In this document: piece by piece, positions 9,060 to 15,784 of the stretch
Layout of the letters: every line of letters starts with the position of its first letter
How positions within the stretch are numbered: the stretch's first letter is position 1
DNA from: Sphingobium scionense
GTDB lineage: Bacteria; Pseudomonadota; Alphaproteobacteria; Sphingomonadales; Sphingomonadaceae
Length of the DNA: 64,000 nucleotides
NCBI RefSeq assembly: GCF_014197035.1
Contig: NZ_JACIEU010000004.1
Coordinates: forward strand, 124,001 to 188,000
Reading direction: 5' to 3'
Made by a program: the position numbers and the translations under genes
Notes under the pieces: model-generated
The model's database searches: none
Told to the model about the DNA's origin: nothing
The model's input: only the letters and a program-made list of their open reading frames with translations

Positions 9060-9081
9060 CCTGATCGGGAAGGCGATCAGG
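9060..9081. terminator. hairpin at the 3' end of the 813-residue protein gene
   Basis: A perfect 8-bp inverted repeat CCTGATCG / CGATCAGG with a 6-nt loop overlaps the stop codon at 9077-9079. It precedes the corA start. No U-run is present. Confidence 0.35.
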
Positions 9082-11518
9082 TGGCAGGCGATGGCGCCTG
9101 CACCACCAGCATCGCCCCCTGCGCGTCACGCAGCCGGACATAGAGCTTGCCGTCGGCCAGCGCCGGCATGGTCAGGCTCGATCCGGTAAAGCCCTGCGCC
9201 ACGGGGACGGACTGGTCAAAGGCGGGATTGCCGGCAACAGCATCGACCAGGAACAGATCGCGCCCCTTGATGGTGCAGCCTTGGTCCTTCTGATCCTTCG
9301 GCGCGCAATCGACCGCCTCGATCCGAGGTAGACGCGCGAGCGGCATCAGCGGTTGCCAATCCCCCTGTTCGCGGCCGCGCACGATTCGGAATTGCAGCGG
9401 CCCGAAGGCCGGGCCAAGCCCCGTCGGATCGAGGGTCGCCACCATCACCTGCGGGCCTTGCAGTTGCAGGCCGGAACCGGCTGTCAGCCGGACGCTGGCC
9501 CCGCCATCCTGCGTCGCGATCTCAATCGCATCGGTCATGGTCAATGTGGTGCCATCCTGCGCCTGCACCGAAAAGACAAGCCGGCCATTATTGGGCAGCA
9601 CATCCGATCCGCCCAGCGTCATCGGCAGACCCGTCGCCGCGGCCGGCGTGACACTCTTGTTCAGCAGCGTCACACGCGGACGCGCGGGGGCGAGGGTGAC
9701 CGGCACCGATACGGTGCGGCCATCCTCCAGTTGCACGCGCGCGCTGCCGCCCTCGGCTGGTAAAGTCCCATCGCCCACGGCCGTCAGATGCAGCCGATCG
9801 ACCGAACCGTCGCGGATCAGGCCATCGGGTTTCCAACTACGCCCGCCCAGGTCGACGCTCGCCACCTGATCGAGCCGCTGCCCCGTCAGTTCGCCCCAGG
9901 CATCACCCTGATGCACGGTCAGCCCGTCGATCTTGCTTGCCTGAGCATAGGCGCGCAGGGGCATGGAGAAAGGCTTGGCCACGCCCTGATATTTGACATC
10001 GATCATGACAGGTCCGGCGCGCCGATCGGCAAGCGGAAGCGTCAGGTCCAGCGTATCCCGGCCCTGCACCTTCCAGCCGATCGACTGGGGGACGGTCCTG
10101 TCCTGACGCAGGGTGACGCTCTCGACACAGGCGGGCGCGCCGCCCGTCAGCTTTAGGCCATTGTCGCGACCAACCACCAGGGTCGGCGCTTCACCCTTCA
10201 CCTGCCAGGCCGCATCATCGGGTCGCTGCAAGACATAGTCAGGCCCTTCGAAGCGGTCGAACCCCCATTGCCCATAGACATGGGCGTCAATCGATCCCTT
10301 GAAGTCAGCAGGCCAGGGACCATCGGCGCGGATCACATAGCCGCCTCGGTCGGCCCGCGCTTCCAGCGGATACTCGATCGCCTGGCCCGACGCTGCCTTC
10401 AATTGCACCGTCATTCCGCGCGCATAGCTGGTCGAATAGATGAGCGGCGCGCCCTCGACCGGCAGCACCGTAGCGGGCAATGCCGCGCAGATCGGCCCCT
10501 GCGCGCCGCTGCGCAGGCGCGGCGGGCTGTCCGCCTCGATCGAGGGCATGCCGACCACCATGACCGACTTGGGCTTGGCGAAGGACGGCGCCTTGTTCAG
10601 CATCACTCCGATATTGTCGTCACGGCGCAGGCTGACCGTCGGCAGATATTCGAAGCTCGGGCTGCTGAAGGCGCCGAACATCCGGGCCAGGTCACGCACC
10701 ACACCGATATAGGGACTGTAATAGCCATAGCCCGCCTCCCGCGTGGCGGCGAGTTGCAGCGCCAGATCGGTAGGGGCGCCGATCAGTGTCTCGGCAATCG
10801 AGCTGCTATGAACATCGGCCAGGACCAGTTGGTCCTTATTCTCCAGCAGGCAGGCGGCCTGAAGCTCGATCACCTTGGACAGGCAATCCTCGTTCAGCTT
10901 CATCGACAGGCTGCGCGCGAGCGCCGGGGCGACGCTGCGCAGGAATTCGGGATGGGTATTTTCCTGTGCCCGGATCGCCGTCATGAAGGCATCCAGCCGC
11001 GAGCGATCGAGCGAAGCCTGATTGAGTTCTTGCGTCGCGCGCACGAACTCGCCCGGCTTGCCGCGCACCGCATCGCTGACCGTGCCCTCGCCGCCACCCG
11101 TTTCCGGCACCAGGAACAGCACCATCTGTCGCGCGCCGTCCGGCACGGTCAGGGCAAGGCGGCGATCCTTGTCCTTCTTCTTCCAGGTTTCGGCGCTGTC
11201 GATCCAGTCCTTGGGCGGCGGATTGGTCGCGCCGCGCAGAAAGGCCGACATCAGCACGAAATTGGCGCCCTGTTCCTTGGGCAGGTTGGGCTCGATAAGC
11301 AGCTTGTCGCCCGCCCTCAGGCTCGGCACCTGGCTGATCGGCAAGCTGGTCGTGCCGCGGGTCACGCTGACCTTGAGGTCCGGCCCCACCAGTTCGAACG
11401 GCGCAGGCTCGGCCGCAAGGCCCGGCGTTAGAAGTGCAGCCCCCAGCGCCGTTCCGATCATCAGGCCGATCGGCTTGCGCAGGCGCGCGGTCTGAATCGG
11501 GGCGGAAGGCTGGGGCAT
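9077..11518 (-). CDS. large secreted protein of unknown function
   Basis: 813 residues. A long signal peptide (hydrophobic IGLMIGTALGAALLTPGLA, cleavage near AA-EPAPF) predicts periplasmic or surface location. The N-terminal part repeats the LRAGDKLLIEPNLP and MVLFLVPETGG type beta segments. A central helical region carries cysteines (EDCLSKV, AACLLEN), followed by several beta-rich, Ig-like stretches (GMTVQLKAASGQAIEYPL, RRAGPVMIDVKYQG). I recognise no catalytic motif and no family. It is divergent from the ModE-type regulator (160-nt gap) and upstream of corA, so it may belong to the ModE/di-heme module or stand alone. Confidence 0.75.
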   Translation of the reverse strand: MPQPSAPIQTARLRKPIGLMIGTALGAALLTPGLAAEPAPFELVGPDLKVSVTRGTTSLPISQVPSLRAGDKLLIEPNLPKEQGANFVLMSAFLRGATNPPPKDWIDSAETWKKKDKDRRLALTVPDGARQMVLFLVPETGGGEGTVSDAVRGKPGEFVRATQELNQASLDRSRLDAFMTAIRAQENTHPEFLRSVAPALARSLSMKLNEDCLSKVIELQAACLLENKDQLVLADVHSSSIAETLIGAPTDLALQLAATREAGYGYYSPYIGVVRDLARMFGAFSSPSFEYLPTVSLRRDDNIGVMLNKAPSFAKPKSVMVVGMPSIEADSPPRLRSGAQGPICAALPATVLPVEGAPLIYSTSYARGMTVQLKAASGQAIEYPLEARADRGGYVIRADGPWPADFKGSIDAHVYGQWGFDRFEGPDYVLQRPDDAAWQVKGEAPTLVVGRDNGLKLTGGAPACVESVTLRQDRTVPQSIGWKVQGRDTLDLTLPLADRRAGPVMIDVKYQGVAKPFSMPLRAYAQASKIDGLTVHQGDAWGELTGQRLDQVASVDLGGRSWKPDGLIRDGSVDRLHLTAVGDGTLPAEGGSARVQLEDGRTVSVPVTLAPARPRVTLLNKSVTPAAATGLPMTLGGSDVLPNNGRLVFSVQAQDGTTLTMTDAIEIATQDGGASVRLTAGSGLQLQGPQVMVATLDPTGLGPAFGPLQFRIVRGREQGDWQPLMPLARLPRIEAVDCAPKDQKDQGCTIKGRDLFLVDAVAGNPAFDQSVPVAQGFTGSSLTMPALADGKLYVRLRDAQGAMLVVQAPSPAT

Positions 11519-11552
11519 GTCTCTCTATCCGGCTATCTATGTTTTTCAGCGA

Positions 11553-11678: not shown

Positions 11679-12056
11679 ATGCAGACCGGAACGTTCAAGC
11701 TCAAGATCCAGATCCTTTGCGGGGACGAGATCGCCATGGGTCCGGGCAAGGCCGACCTGCTCGATGCGATCGCGCTGCACGGCTCCATATCGGCGGCCGG
11801 GCGGGCGCTGGGCATGAGCTATCGGCGCAGCTGGCTGTTGGTCGACACGATGAACCGCTGCTGGAACGACCGCCTGGTCGAGACGGTCGCTGGTGGCGGC
11901 CGTGATCGTGGCGCACGGGTGACGGAAGCAGGGCAGGCCGTGCTGGCCGCCTATCGCGCGCTGGAACAGGCCGCACTTACCGCCACCGGTGGACAGGCGC
12001 AGGCCCAGCTTGACGCCCTGCTGCGCCCGATCCCCCTGCCCGCCACTCTTTCATAG
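11679..12056 (+). CDS. ModE-type winged-helix DNA-binding protein (no TOBE domain)
   Basis: 125 residues, matching only the N-terminal DNA-binding domain of ModE: GPGKADLLDAIALHGSISAAGRALGMSYRRSWLLVDTMN and then RVTEAGQAVLAAYRALE. The two C-terminal molybdate-binding (TOBE/Mop) domains of E. coli ModE are absent. Such short LysR-type ModE homologues occur widely; their ligand is often unknown and need not be molybdate. The gene overlaps the convergent di-heme peroxidase stop by six bases (12051-12056). It probably controls the neighbouring TonB/peroxidase genes, where a ModE-box-like palindrome lies. Confidence 0.85.
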   Translation: MQTGTFKLKIQILCGDEIAMGPGKADLLDAIALHGSISAAGRALGMSYRRSWLLVDTMNRCWNDRLVETVAGGGRDRGARVTEAGQAVLAAYRALEQAALTATGGQAQAQLDALLRPIPLPATLS

Positions 12057-13037
12057 TGTCTTGCCACAGGCTTCGTCCGGCATGGCGAAGCGTGGATCGG
12101 TGAGGAAAGTCCGATCGGTCAGGCTGTCGAGGAAAGCCCTGATCGCGATCCGTTCGGCGTCGGTCAGTTTCCGGCCATGGCGCAGGATCGCCACATCCAG
12201 CGTTTGCGCGGACCCATCATGCCACCAGGGGCCGGTCACCGCGACGTTGCGGAGCGGCGGCGTGCGAAACCGCCCGGCATCACTTGCCAGTCCCGTCTTT
12301 TCGGCCAATCCCGGATCGGCGGCCGTCGCCGGTTCCAGTCGATGATAGGCACCGTCGCTGAAATCGCGACCCGCATGACAGGACGCACACCCCTTGTCCG
12401 CGAACAGGCGCTCGCCCTGCCAGGCCGACATCGACAGGGCATCGGCCTGCCCCCGTCGAGCGCGATCATGAGGACTGTCGAGCGAAATCAGCGTCCGTTC
12501 GAACGCCGCCAGCGCCGCCGACACCGTCGCGATGTCGATCCGGCCGCGATGTTCCGGGAAGGCGCGCGCGAACATTCGGCGATAGCAGGCATCGGCACCC
12601 AGCCGACGCGGAAGTTCCGCCTCCATCCCCTTCATCCCCATTTCGATGGGATGTTCGCCCAGCAGCGGCACGGCGACCTGCGCCTCCAGGCTGGTAATCG
12701 CCGGATCTGCGATGGTGAGGCGCGGCAACCAGGCCACATTGGCCAGGCCCGGCACATTGCGCAGCCCTGGATCGCCATGCACGCCGGGGCGCGTGCGATT
12801 CCCATCGGCAAAGCCGCGATGCTGTTCATGGCATCCGGCACAGCTCAACGTGCCATTGGCCGACAGGTCGGCGTCATAGAAAAGGCGGTGGCCAAGCTCG
12901 ACCTTCGCCGCGCTCATTGCGTTGCCGACCGGCACCGGCGGCGGCGCTTCGCCCGGCAGCAAGCTCCAGGTCCATGGCAGCCCCGCCCCGATCAGCAGCA
13001 GCGTCGCGAGCAATAGCGGCCAGTGCGCCGGCTTCAC
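12051..13037 (-). CDS. di-heme cytochrome c peroxidase family protein (MauG/MbnH-like)
   Basis: 328 residues from a GTG at 13037 that overlaps the upstream stop (GTGA). An N-terminal hydrophobic segment (HWPLLLATLLLIGAGLPWTW) exports or anchors it in the periplasm. There are two c-heme sites, C66-AG-C69-H70 and C217-AS-C220-H221. The segment LTSLEAQ/VAVPLLGEHPIEMGM between them recalls the MbnH (MXAN_0977-type) branch more than classical CcpA, by memory. Members reduce peroxide or oxidise tryptophan or other residues in a partner protein. The partner candidate is the small secreted protein encoded immediately upstream. Confidence 0.85.
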   Translation of the reverse strand: MKPAHWPLLLATLLLIGAGLPWTWSLLPGEAPPPVPVGNAMSAAKVELGHRLFYDADLSANGTLSCAGCHEQHRGFADGNRTRPGVHGDPGLRNVPGLANVAWLPRLTIADPAITSLEAQVAVPLLGEHPIEMGMKGMEAELPRRLGADACYRRMFARAFPEHRGRIDIATVSAALAAFERTLISLDSPHDRARRGQADALSMSAWQGERLFADKGCASCHAGRDFSDGAYHRLEPATAADPGLAEKTGLASDAGRFRTPPLRNVAVTGPWWHDGSAQTLDVAILRHGRKLTDAERIAIRAFLDSLTDRTFLTDPRFAMPDEACGKTL

Positions 13038-13561
13038 GGCAGACGGGTCACCAGCACCGTCATCTGCGGATCGCCATTGGCCGCTAGTTGCAGGATATAG
13101 TCGCCCGGTTCCAGGCGGTAATCGACCATCTTGCGGATGCCGGTGCAATCCGGCCCATGGCCATGCGCGGTCGAGGTCGCGGCGGCGCCGTCCTTCACCA
13201 CATCGACCCAGGCGCCACCGCTCAGCGCCACCCGCCAGGTGCCGGGCTGATCGACGGTGAAATGGACGATGCCACCGAAGCTGACACTGCCGCCGGGCTT
13301 GGCCGGACGAAGCGGATAGCTGAGCTTGGGCGTCGGTAGCAGAGCCAGCGCCACCGCCTGCCCGGGCTTCAGCGCGACCTTGCCGGCTCCCTTGGCATCG
13401 GCCGCCGCCTGCATCGGCTGCGGCGCCCGCCAGGATGCCATCTCCGCTGGCGGATCGGCCGGGGCAGCGCAGGCCTGCGCGCCCGTCATCTGGGCGAAGG
13501 CCGATACCGGCACCAAGGCCGCGCACAGGGCCGGAAACAGCAGGAACAGCGGCTGAAGCAT
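13034..13561 (-). CDS. small secreted protein paired with the di-heme enzyme
   Basis: 175 residues with a signal peptide (MLQPLFLLFPALCAALVPVSAFA). The mature part is beta-rich and has conserved-looking features: W44, H100 in HFTVDQPGTWRV, W109, W118, then a TAHGHGPDC box with H133, H135 and C139, followed by GIRKMVDYRLEPGDYILQL. Mature cysteines C31 and C139 could pair. I recall proteins of this type in sphingomonads being labelled homogentisate dioxygenase, which the fold and length do not support. The four-base overlap with the di-heme peroxidase suggests they work together. Confidence 0.75.
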   Translation of the reverse strand: MLQPLFLLFPALCAALVPVSAFAQMTGAQACAAPADPPAEMASWRAPQPMQAAADAKGAGKVALKPGQAVALALLPTPKLSYPLRPAKPGGSVSFGGIVHFTVDQPGTWRVALSGGAWVDVVKDGAAATSTAHGHGPDCTGIRKMVDYRLEPGDYILQLAANGDPQMTVLVTRLP

Positions 13562-13584
13562 GGGCTTCTCTCCCCAAGACAAAA

Positions 13585-13604
13585 CTATATACGGCGGGAT
13601 ATAG
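13585..13604. promoter_or_regulatory. ModE-box-like palindrome between divergent genes
   Basis: CTATAT-N8-ATATAG, a perfect 6-bp dyad in the 75-nt gap between the small secreted protein (start 13561, minus) and the TonB receptor (start 13637, plus). E. coli ModE binds dyads built on GTTATAT and ATATAAC half-sites, so the A/T core is similar, and a ModE-type protein is encoded 1.5 kb away. Confidence 0.5.
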
Positions 13605-13636
13605 CGAGTCGAACGACCAAGAATAGGGGGATTTTC

Positions 13637-15784
13637 ATGCGACAGACCATGATGCGCATTTTGCTGGCCAGCGCCTGCTGCTGGACCGCGACGGCAGAGG
13701 CGCAGGGCGCGCCCGATGCGACCGGCGACAGCGATCGCTTCTCGCTCGGCCAGATTATCGTCACTGCCCCTAGGACCAGCGGGATAGAGATTGACGGCAG
13801 CACCCTGTCCTCCGACGCCATCTACAGCTTCAATCGCACCTCGCTCGACGATGCGGTCAACCTCATGCCCGGCGTGTCCGCCGGCAACAGCGGCGGCACC
13901 CGCAACGAGCGGCTGGTCTTCGTGCGTGGCTTCGACCGGTTCCAGGTGCCGCTCTCGATCGATGGCATCCGTGTCTATCTGCCCGCCGACAACCGGCTCG
14001 ATTATGGCCGCTTCCTGACCACCGACATTGCCGAGGTCCAGATCGCCAAGGGCTATGCCTCCGTGCTGGACGGCCCCGGCGCCATGGGTGGCGCGATCAA
14101 CCTGGTGACCAGCAAGCCGACCAAGGCGCTCGACATCGATCTGCGCGGGCAGGTCAGCTTCGACAATGACATGGACTATGCCGGCTATACCACGTCGGCC
14201 AAGGTCGGCACCCGGCACGATCTCTGGTATGCGCAGGCCAGCTATGCGCGCAGCTTTACCGATCATTGGGACCTGCCCAATGGTTTCACGCCGCGCGTGC
14301 CCACGCTGGAAGATGGCGGCGCGCGCGACTTTTCAAAGGCGGAAGACTGGCGCGTCAATGCCAAGGTCGGCTTCACCCCCAACGCCACCGACGAATATGC
14401 GCTGAGTTATACCCATCAGGAAGGATCGAAGGGCGCACCGCTGCACATCAGCGACACGGTCACCACGGCCCGTTTCTGGGACTGGCCGTCCTGGGACGTC
14501 ACCAGCGTCTATTTCCTGTCGACCACGGCGCTGGGCGACCGGGCAACGCTCAAGACCCGCGCTTATTATAACCAGTTCGATTCGATGCTCCGCTCCTTCA
14601 ATGACCGGTCACAAACCGCACAGAGCCGGCCCTACGCCTTTGACAGCCCCTATGAAGACAAGGCCTGGGGCGGATCGGCCCAGCTCGATTTCACCGCGAC
14701 CGATGCGGACACGCTGCGCCTCGCCTTCCATTATCGCCATGATGAGCATGTCGAATATCAGACCAGCTTTTCGACGGCCGGCGTCGCCACCACGGAGCCC
14801 AAGCAGACCCAGAGCGAGGCCACCTATTCCATCGCGCTGGAAAATGAGCTGGCGCTGAGCCCGGCGCTCCGCTTCACCCTGTGCGGCAGCTATGACTGGC
14901 GCAACCTAGAACGCGCCGAGGAATATGGCGCCCCGCTCGGCACGTCGGGCACGCCATCGATCATCTACAATTACCCGCGCAGGGACGCCGACACCTGGAA
15001 TGCGCAGGGCCGGTTCGACTGGCAGGCCAGCGATGCGCTGTCGCTCCACGCCAGCCTCTCGTCGCGTGCCCGCTTCCCGACTATCTTTGAACGGTTCAGC
15101 CAGCGCTTCAACACCGCCATCCCCAACCCCGACCTGAAGGCGGAACGGGCGACCAACGCGGAAATCGGCGGCAGCTGGAGCCAGGGATCGATCCGGCTGG
15201 AAGGCGCGCTCTTCTACAGCTGGGTGCGGGACGCGATCTTCAGCGTGCCGACGCCGGCCTATCCCTGCACCGCATCGACCACGCCGCCCGCCGTGCCGAC
15301 CACGGGCTGCGCCCTCACCAACCTCAGTCAGAGCCGCAATGTCGGCAAGGGCGAATATTACGGCATCGAACTGTCGGCCTCGGCGACACTGCTGCCGGGG
15401 CTGGACGCCGGCATCAACTATACCGGTATCAAGCGCGACCTGACCGATCCGTCCAACGCGCGCTTCCGCCCCACCGGCGTCCCCACGCACAAGGGCTTCG
15501 CCTATCTCGACTGGGCACCGTTCGAAAAATTGCACATCGTTCCCAGCGTCGACCTAGCATCGAACCGCTGGACATTGTTCACCGCAAGCCCGGCGTCGCA
15601 ACCAGCCCGCTATTACCGCGCCGGCGCCTATGCGAATGCCAGCCTGCGAATCGACCTGACCCTGACCAACCAGATCGACCTCAGCATCGGCGGGCGCAAT
15701 CTGTTCGATGACTATTACACGCTGACGGATGGTTTTCCCGAACCGGGACGCACCGTCTATGCGTCGGCCCGTTTCCGCTATTGA
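13637..15784 (+). CDS. TonB-dependent outer-membrane receptor
   Basis: 715 residues. A signal peptide is followed by a plug domain (about residues 40-165: GQIIVTAP TonB-box-like stretch, LDDAVNLMPGVS, RGFDRFQVPLSIDGIRVYLP, EVQIAKGYASVLDGPGAMGGAINLVT). A ~22-strand barrel ends in the aromatic signature YASARFRY. These receptors import metal chelates, vitamin B12, sugars or other large ligands using TonB energy. AGGGGG lies 11 bases upstream of the ATG. The divergent neighbours are the small secreted protein and di-heme enzyme, which favours a metal or metallophore ligand. Confidence 0.92.
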   Translation: MRQTMMRILLASACCWTATAEAQGAPDATGDSDRFSLGQIIVTAPRTSGIEIDGSTLSSDAIYSFNRTSLDDAVNLMPGVSAGNSGGTRNERLVFVRGFDRFQVPLSIDGIRVYLPADNRLDYGRFLTTDIAEVQIAKGYASVLDGPGAMGGAINLVTSKPTKALDIDLRGQVSFDNDMDYAGYTTSAKVGTRHDLWYAQASYARSFTDHWDLPNGFTPRVPTLEDGGARDFSKAEDWRVNAKVGFTPNATDEYALSYTHQEGSKGAPLHISDTVTTARFWDWPSWDVTSVYFLSTTALGDRATLKTRAYYNQFDSMLRSFNDRSQTAQSRPYAFDSPYEDKAWGGSAQLDFTATDADTLRLAFHYRHDEHVEYQTSFSTAGVATTEPKQTQSEATYSIALENELALSPALRFTLCGSYDWRNLERAEEYGAPLGTSGTPSIIYNYPRRDADTWNAQGRFDWQASDALSLHASLSSRARFPTIFERFSQRFNTAIPNPDLKAERATNAEIGGSWSQGSIRLEGALFYSWVRDAIFSVPTPAYPCTASTTPPAVPTTGCALTNLSQSRNVGKGEYYGIELSASATLLPGLDAGINYTGIKRDLTDPSNARFRPTGVPTHKGFAYLDWAPFEKLHIVPSVDLASNRWTLFTASPASQPARYYRAGAYANASLRIDLTLTNQIDLSIGGRNLFDDYYTLTDGFPEPGRTVYASARFRY

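Follow-up and report, generated by a model that had tools for sequence, protein, structure and literature searches.

A conserved enzyme-partner pair of the MbnH branch under a ModE-type palindrome in Sphingobium scionense: a candidate module for molybdenum or tungsten acquisition

In a stretch of 64,000 nucleotides from Sphingobium scionense (NCBI RefSeq assembly GCF_014197035.1, contig NZ_JACIEU010000004.1, positions 124,001 to 188,000 of the forward strand), in the following called the window, four neighboring genes encode a ModE-type DNA-binding protein, a di-heme enzyme, an undescribed secreted protein, which we name Small, and a TonB-dependent outer-membrane receptor (Table 1). The enzyme, which belongs to the MbnH branch of di-heme enzymes, and Small make up a new pair of enzyme and partner, and this pair stands under a ModE box. 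We propose, with a probability of roughly 0.55 for the reading as a whole, that the locus is a ModE-controlled module for the acquisition of molybdenum or tungsten, in which Small is matured by the enzyme. At low supply of molybdenum (or tungsten), the ModE-type protein would quit a palindrome between two divergent promoters, and this derepression would lead to the production of receptor, Small and enzyme. Small would then be exported and the enzyme would dock on its RPxxPGGSVS loop and oxidise it, most likely at W118, before the matured Small would bind the metal or its chelate and serve uptake through the TonB receptor. In a more specific form, which we put forward tentatively, an MbnH-branch enzyme with a bis-His-type heme would mature Small into a scavenger of molybdenum or tungsten that feeds the receptor under ModE control, a protein-based acquisition route that depends on post-translational modification and does not involve copper.

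The arrangement of the locus is conserved. An initial annotation, which was made from the sequence of the window alone, had suggested that an MbnH-type enzyme, a secreted partner other than MbnP, a receptor and a ModE-type regulator form a new pairing, and this combination was indeed recovered across genomes. Homologues of Small are present in 73 of 298 Sphingomonadaceae genomes, representing 31 of 96 genera, and in 4 of 288 other genomes of a class-wide sample; among named relatives, the locus is closest to those of Sphingobium species. The searches found 82 places with Small, including that of the window itself; of the 81 others, 60 were taken with their flanks, the remainder being mostly weaker. 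After omission of the duplicate L043, which has the same contig and place as L036 and was left out everywhere, the comparison set comprised 71 Small rows, i.e., the window, 11 loci of named relatives and 59 flanked loci, in which adjacency was counted by tblastn. The enzyme follows Small on the same strand in 27 of these 71 rows, a receptor without enzyme is found in 11 rows, and 33 rows have neither. Relatives of the window TonB receptor (P0004-type) are encoded divergently in 25 of the 27 enzyme loci (in L052 as a matching fragment only), and in 11 of the 27 the region downstream of the enzyme contains a ModE-type gene. Starting from the enzyme, close relatives (E <1e-60) were detected in 21 of the 298 genomes and Small adjoins them in 18; the remaining three are a lone enzyme relative (L110) and two MbnP-MbnH pairs (L111, L112), which exceed both family cut-offs and reach MbnH scores of 422.8 and 434.8 bits. 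Since identical neighbors recur in many genomes, the arrangement goes beyond chance, contrary to the possibility, considered in the initial annotation, that the gene neighborhood might lack conservation among sphingomonads. Moreover, named plasmids of Novosphingobium sp. RL4, Sphingomonas sp. NY01 and Methylorubrum extorquens CM4 (pCMU01) add three enzyme loci (L195, L196 and, from NY01, L198), a fourth plasmid locus, of S. paeninsulae, being the same replicon as G244. All three encode a Small with the loop, a palindrome (scores 28.7, 22.9 and 31.9, none of these loci having been used in matrix training) and a ModE-type gene, and the locus on pCMU01 is outside the order and has insertion sequences around the module.

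Small itself gave no Pfam or NCBIfam match at E values up to 1, and its identification as MbnP was discarded in the absence of a match to the MbnP profile TIGR04052, in agreement with what had been supposed from the sequence. The previously described features of this 175-residue protein, namely W44, W109, W118 and a HGHGPDC box, were all recovered, and the N-terminus is signal-like as judged by eye. Family-wide residues are C31, W44, W118, D120, H133, H135 and C139. The structure model, which has a mean predicted local distance difference test score (pLDDT) of 83.9, is a beta-sandwich resembling the PPC/collagen-binding domains of bacterial collagenases (VIA-align against 5iku: best Z 10.5, root-mean-square deviation 2.6 over 104 residues). 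Unlike these domains, Small is a stand-alone secreted protein with the HGHGPxC box and the enzyme-linked loop, and it has no PPC sequence match in Pfam.

The loop connects Small to the enzyme. All 27 rows with enzyme contain its motif, P[GS]G[ST]V, against 0 of 44 rows without (Fisher 3e-20, a value that ignores relatedness). All enzyme-bearing rows fall within a 32-row clade of the Small tree (support 98/86) that includes five enzyme-less rows (L049, L056, L062, L071, L074), and the loop is lost in all five. The best tree contains five changes of the enzyme label, of which well-supported branches force at least three, so that the coincidence of loop and enzyme is a repeated one. The genomes of four of the nested rows (G133, G031, G049, G217) gave no match to the enzyme at E 1e-30. 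The remaining row, L071, represents an additional copy of Small in G067, whose other copy (L042) has both enzyme and loop. The loop tracks the enzyme and not the receptor, because it is present in 0 of 11 receptor-only rows and is kept in L044 and L053, which have an enzyme and no P0004-type receptor. On the simplest reading of this pattern the loop would be a docking or reaction site, and the coupling predicts where enzyme and partner make contact. A functional pairing of enzyme and Small is very probable. Concerning the chemistry, a covalent modification of Small appears somewhat favored, while W118 as its target is a tentative assignment. Among the three tryptophans that had been pointed out initially, W118 has stood the comparison, being the one kept in 27 of 27 enzyme-linked rows, whereas W44 is replaced by Phe in the enzyme-keeping row L044 and 15 of the 27 rows have Tyr in place of W109; both are therefore excluded as general target, and W118 is left as the only general tryptophan candidate. 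Y82, although kept in 27 of 27 rows, was rejected as an enzyme-specific residue, as the five nested enzyme-less rows have it too. The strand order of the model suggests that strands 117-123 and 130-134 pair, in which case a single face of the resulting beta hairpin would carry W118, D120, H133 and H135.

The second line of evidence is the palindrome, which had escaped the initial annotation, as had the enzyme-linked loop and the replacement of Tyr by His in the enzyme, which is described below. It was sought with a ModE half-site and reads TCGCTATATC-CCGCCG-TATATAGTTT on the minus strand, within the 75-base gap between the divergent genes of Small and the receptor. It matches the Escherichia coli ModE consensus, ATCGNTATATA-N6-TATATANCGAT, as given in PMC545781. 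With a position weight matrix for which the window was kept outside training, the site scores 34.8 and the next best site in the window 13.8. Under leave-one-out scoring, all 27 enzyme loci reach at least 17 in the region upstream of Small, with a minimum of 20.2, as do 9 of 11 receptor-only loci; applying the full matrix, 6 of the 33 other loci reach this value and the remaining 27 stay below 8.4. Among 877,637 other positions in those loci, which served as background, none reaches 17 and the maximum is 14.0. The case for the palindrome is one of site strength and conservation.

The regulator encoded in the window matches HTH_1 in Pfam and nothing else, so that the earlier description of the 125-residue protein as TOBE-less holds. 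Its best NCBIfam match, the ModE DNA-binding domain TIGR00637, remains below the cut-off (70.8 vs 98.5 bits), and it is the only ModE-type match in the host genome. A connection to molybdenum comes from relatives. In 20 ModE loci away from Small, which were chosen by hand, ModE stands beside modA-modB in 12, as confirmed with ModA and ModB queries. The 12 modA promoters, none of which was in the matrix training, score at least 17 in seven cases, 14.3-15.3 in four more and 11.3 in one; 11 of 12 thus exceed the background maximum. Eleven genomes with the enzyme module are represented among the 20 loci, and in six of them ModE is beside modA-modB (G011, G094, G138, G185, G220, G230), with a modA promoter score of at least 17 in G185, G220 and G230. 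Furthermore, Small is located beside modA in L071, L088 and L093. Because the ModE box is found both upstream of Small and at modA of relatives, control by the ModE-type protein is the most likely form of regulation, and we regard it as very probable; for the same reason molybdenum or tungsten is preferred over copper, with about even odds that one of them is the cargo. The locus shares with the E. coli ModE regulon the near-consensus palindrome, the adjoining ModE-type protein and the element at modA of relatives, whereas its targets differ, these being the receptor of the outer membrane, the secreted Small and the di-heme enzyme.

Several observations weigh against this proposal. The host genome gave no TOBE match, although the same analysis found the domain in 12 of 14 control genomes, and the signal sensed in this organism could therefore be other than molybdate. 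No palindrome is present at the host's own modA promoter (best score -10.9 within 200 bases). In both respects the locus departs from the E. coli regulon. When the plain pattern with 3 mismatches is used, the host genome contains 107 sites vs 101 for a reversed control, i.e., no enrichment, and 0.50 sites are expected in the window. The ModE-type gene adjoins the enzyme in no more than the 11 of 27 enzyme loci given above. None of the residues in the loop is easily oxidised, and W118 and the HGHGPxC box are retained in enzyme-less family members too and are therefore not specific to a modification. Finally, according to PMC3912023 and PMC3621798, the partners of MbnH, CorB and SACCP are linked to copper.

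The last point leads to the alternative of a copper module. Small would then be a functional counterpart of CorA, MopE and MbnP, with a tryptophan converted to kynurenine that forms a copper site together with two histidines, and ModE would have been recruited for copper or for a cross-talk of copper and molybdenum. The position of the enzyme within the MbnH branch fits this, and CorA, according to PMC3912023, holds Cu(I) by two His, water and Kyn62, for which W118 with H133 and H135 would supply similar groups. However, the palindrome is common to modA promoters of relatives, Small lies within modABC clusters in three loci, and it combines the absence of an MbnP profile match with a PPC-like predicted fold; we therefore judge a copper module to be unlikely. 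The general assumption of a metal module, made in the initial annotation, is sharpened by the ModE box as control element, which favors molybdenum or tungsten over the copper precedent. The MbnH/MbnP pair (TIGR04039/TIGR04052; CorB/CorA and SACCP/MopE in methanotrophs) is likewise a two-gene unit of a secreted partner and an MbnH-branch di-heme enzyme, the enzyme oxidising a tryptophan of its partner to kynurenine. In PMC3621798 the pair is described in methanobactin operons, often near TonB receptors, with a role that was then unknown. Unlike that pair, the locus analyzed here has a non-MbnP, PPC-like partner, a shorter enzyme with His for Tyr, and a ModE-type palindrome with its regulator. 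A search of the host genome for MbnP found none, the same search giving no match in any control genome. As copper is the metal with which MbnH-type pairs have so far been associated, the proposed molybdenum or tungsten module, if true, would mean that the same chemistry serves another metal.

The di-heme enzyme carries CCP_MauG in Pfam and two CxxCH sites, and the CAGCH, CASCH and PLLGEHPIEMG segments reported for it are all present. The MbnH model TIGR04039 is its best NCBIfam match, below cut-off with 278.1 vs 362.85 bits, and the score against MauG (TIGR03791) is 140.3 bits at a cut-off of 443.85. Its best solved relative is entry 6e1c, 'Di-heme enzyme', which we take to be MbnH. The structure model of the enzyme was poor (mean pLDDT 55.7) and was left unused. 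A maximum likelihood tree was calculated with 63 rows, excluding L059, whose frame is broken near the C-terminus and which is nevertheless counted as enzyme-bearing. The 26 rows of the clade and L110 form one branch (100/98), which unites with eight MbnH rows into a 35-row branch (100/99); within it, the clade and L110 have as their sister group seven of these MbnH rows (97/91), and the eighth, L124, is outside both. MbnP adjacency was confirmed for two of the eight MbnH rows, L111 and L112. The enzymes of the clade differ from MbnH in an alignment column that we assume, by correspondence with Tyr294 of MauG and the Met of CcpA, to be that of a heme ligand: all 26 clade rows, as well as L110, have His there and all eight MbnH rows have Tyr, the 28 other rows having Tyr (19) or Met (9). 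A Trp lies between the hemes of MauG and CcpA, and at this position the clade has I, Y, F, A or W. Classical CcpA is excluded by the tree, in which the enzyme does not cluster with the CcpA-like rows, and by His, not Met, at the ligand column; clustering with CcpA had been named in the initial annotation as an outcome that would speak against its reading. We place the enzyme within the MbnH branch, with a predicted His in place of the usual Tyr ligand. It resembles MauG, which matures tryptophan tryptophylquinone, in belonging to the di-heme MauG/CCP family with two CxxCH sites, and is unlike MauG in its score below the cut-off, the His for the Tyr ligand and the lack of conservation of the inter-heme Trp. 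If the assignment is true, a natural Tyr-to-His variant would become available to the enzymology of the MauG family. A precedent for the predicted bis-His ligand set is found in the gamma subunit of hydrazine synthase, a MauG/CcpA homologue in which heme gammaII is bis-His ligated according to PMC12607021; this is another enzyme with other partners and distant sequence similarity only.

The membership in the MauG/CcpA superfamily also raises the question whether the enzyme is an ordinary periplasmic peroxidase or electron-transfer protein, with Small as structural or electron-donor partner and nothing covalently modified. Many members of the superfamily are H2O2 peroxidases, and the inter-heme Trp of MauG and CcpA is not retained in the clade. 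Since the clade groups with MbnH, apart from the CcpA-like rows, carries His rather than Met at the ligand column, and occurs in step with the loop of Small, for which a generic peroxidase would have no need, we consider this explanation improbable.

The divergent receptor that had been annotated is a 715-residue protein with Plug and barrel domains over the Pfam cut-offs. Its best class model, TIGR01785, scores 119.8 bits vs a cut-off of 316.85, the best family models are those of haem and siderophore receptors, all below cut-off, and no solved structure of a relative was found at E 1e-10. That Small and the receptor import an organic chelate of siderophore or haem type, with the enzyme altering the chelate or reducing the metal rather than modifying a protein, would agree with these best models and with locus L185, in which ModE and a palindrome neighbor a siderophore-type receptor that exceeds its cut-off and is itself followed by a ModA-type binding protein, but the loss of the enzyme coincides with the loss of the loop of Small, pointing to direct protein contact, and we hold this to be quite improbable. 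If, on the other hand, the receptor does belong to a ModE-controlled molybdenum or tungsten module, TonB-dependent uptake of these metals would be directly testable. A search of literature titles yielded none on an MbnH-type enzyme together with a TonB receptor under ModE control, most subscription papers being outside this search, so that absence from print is unproven.

With respect to the layout of the locus, the ModE-type and di-heme genes are convergent with a 6-base overlap, and the stop codon of Small overlaps the GTG start of the di-heme gene (GTGA). This overlap makes the translational coupling stated in the initial annotation plausible.

Table 1. Features of the locus, with positions in the window.
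Feature	Positions	Strand	Remarks and basis
ModE-type DNA-binding protein, TOBE-less	11679..12056	+	125 amino acids; open reading frame, Pfam, TIGR00637
Di-heme enzyme, MbnH branch	12051..13037	-	328 amino acids, GTG start; open reading frame, Pfam, TIGR04039, tree
Codon of His287 of the enzyme	12177..12179	-	Aligned with Tyr of MbnH rows and Met of CcpA-like rows
Small, undescribed secreted protein	13034..13561	-	175 amino acids; open reading frame, predicted PPC-like beta-sandwich
HGHGPDC box of Small, residues 133-139	13145..13165	-	Family-wide (HGHGPxC)
Codon of W118 of Small	13208..13210	-	Sole tryptophan kept in all enzyme-linked rows
Loop RPxxPGGSVS of Small, residues 85-94	13280..13309	-	Present only with adjoining enzyme
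ModE-box-type palindrome between divergent Small and TonB genes	13582..13607		Half-site search, matrix, E. coli consensus
TonB-dependent outer-membrane receptor	13637..15784	+	715 amino acids; Pfam Plug and barrel

Some further observations concern the relatives of these genes. ModE and the palindrome also occur beside other TonB receptors (L178:1939-4287, L183:1544-3907 and L185:4399-6519, the last being the locus with the ModA-type binding protein mentioned above), and a link between TonB receptors and ModE may be more widespread. In Sphingomonas sp. NY01 a stand-alone TOBE protein of 68 residues (L198:8808-9014) adjoins a TOBE-less ModE, like a regulator split into two genes, and because of this neighborhood the sensor half may be encoded separately in that strain. 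The modA-modB-modC region of the host (L166:3412-8187) lies beside a molybdopterin oxidoreductase-like gene, and its modA and modB are separated by a gene on the opposite strand. The lone enzyme relative L110 (L110:5418-6467) is of the His type and has no adjoining Small. C151 and C324 of the enzyme are invariant in an alignment of 10 rows, the position of C151 being D/V-Y in MbnH-type rows, and the two cysteines may form a clade-specific disulfide.

Paralogues of Small are found near ruvA/ruvB (L081, L084, L090) and near a mutL-like gene (L079, L082, L085, L087, L095, L101), as named by eye from the neighbors; they have no enzyme, receptor or palindrome and are uninformative on function. In two plasmid records Small is named 'homogentisate 1,2-dioxygenase' (L197:4414-4932, L198:4651-4944), a name that gained no support here. 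The second-best palindrome-like site of the window, with its weak score of 13.8, is situated at 11520-11545, at the start of a gene for an 813-residue protein (9077-11518), and relatives of this gene occur near the module in L032, L034, L035 and L036.

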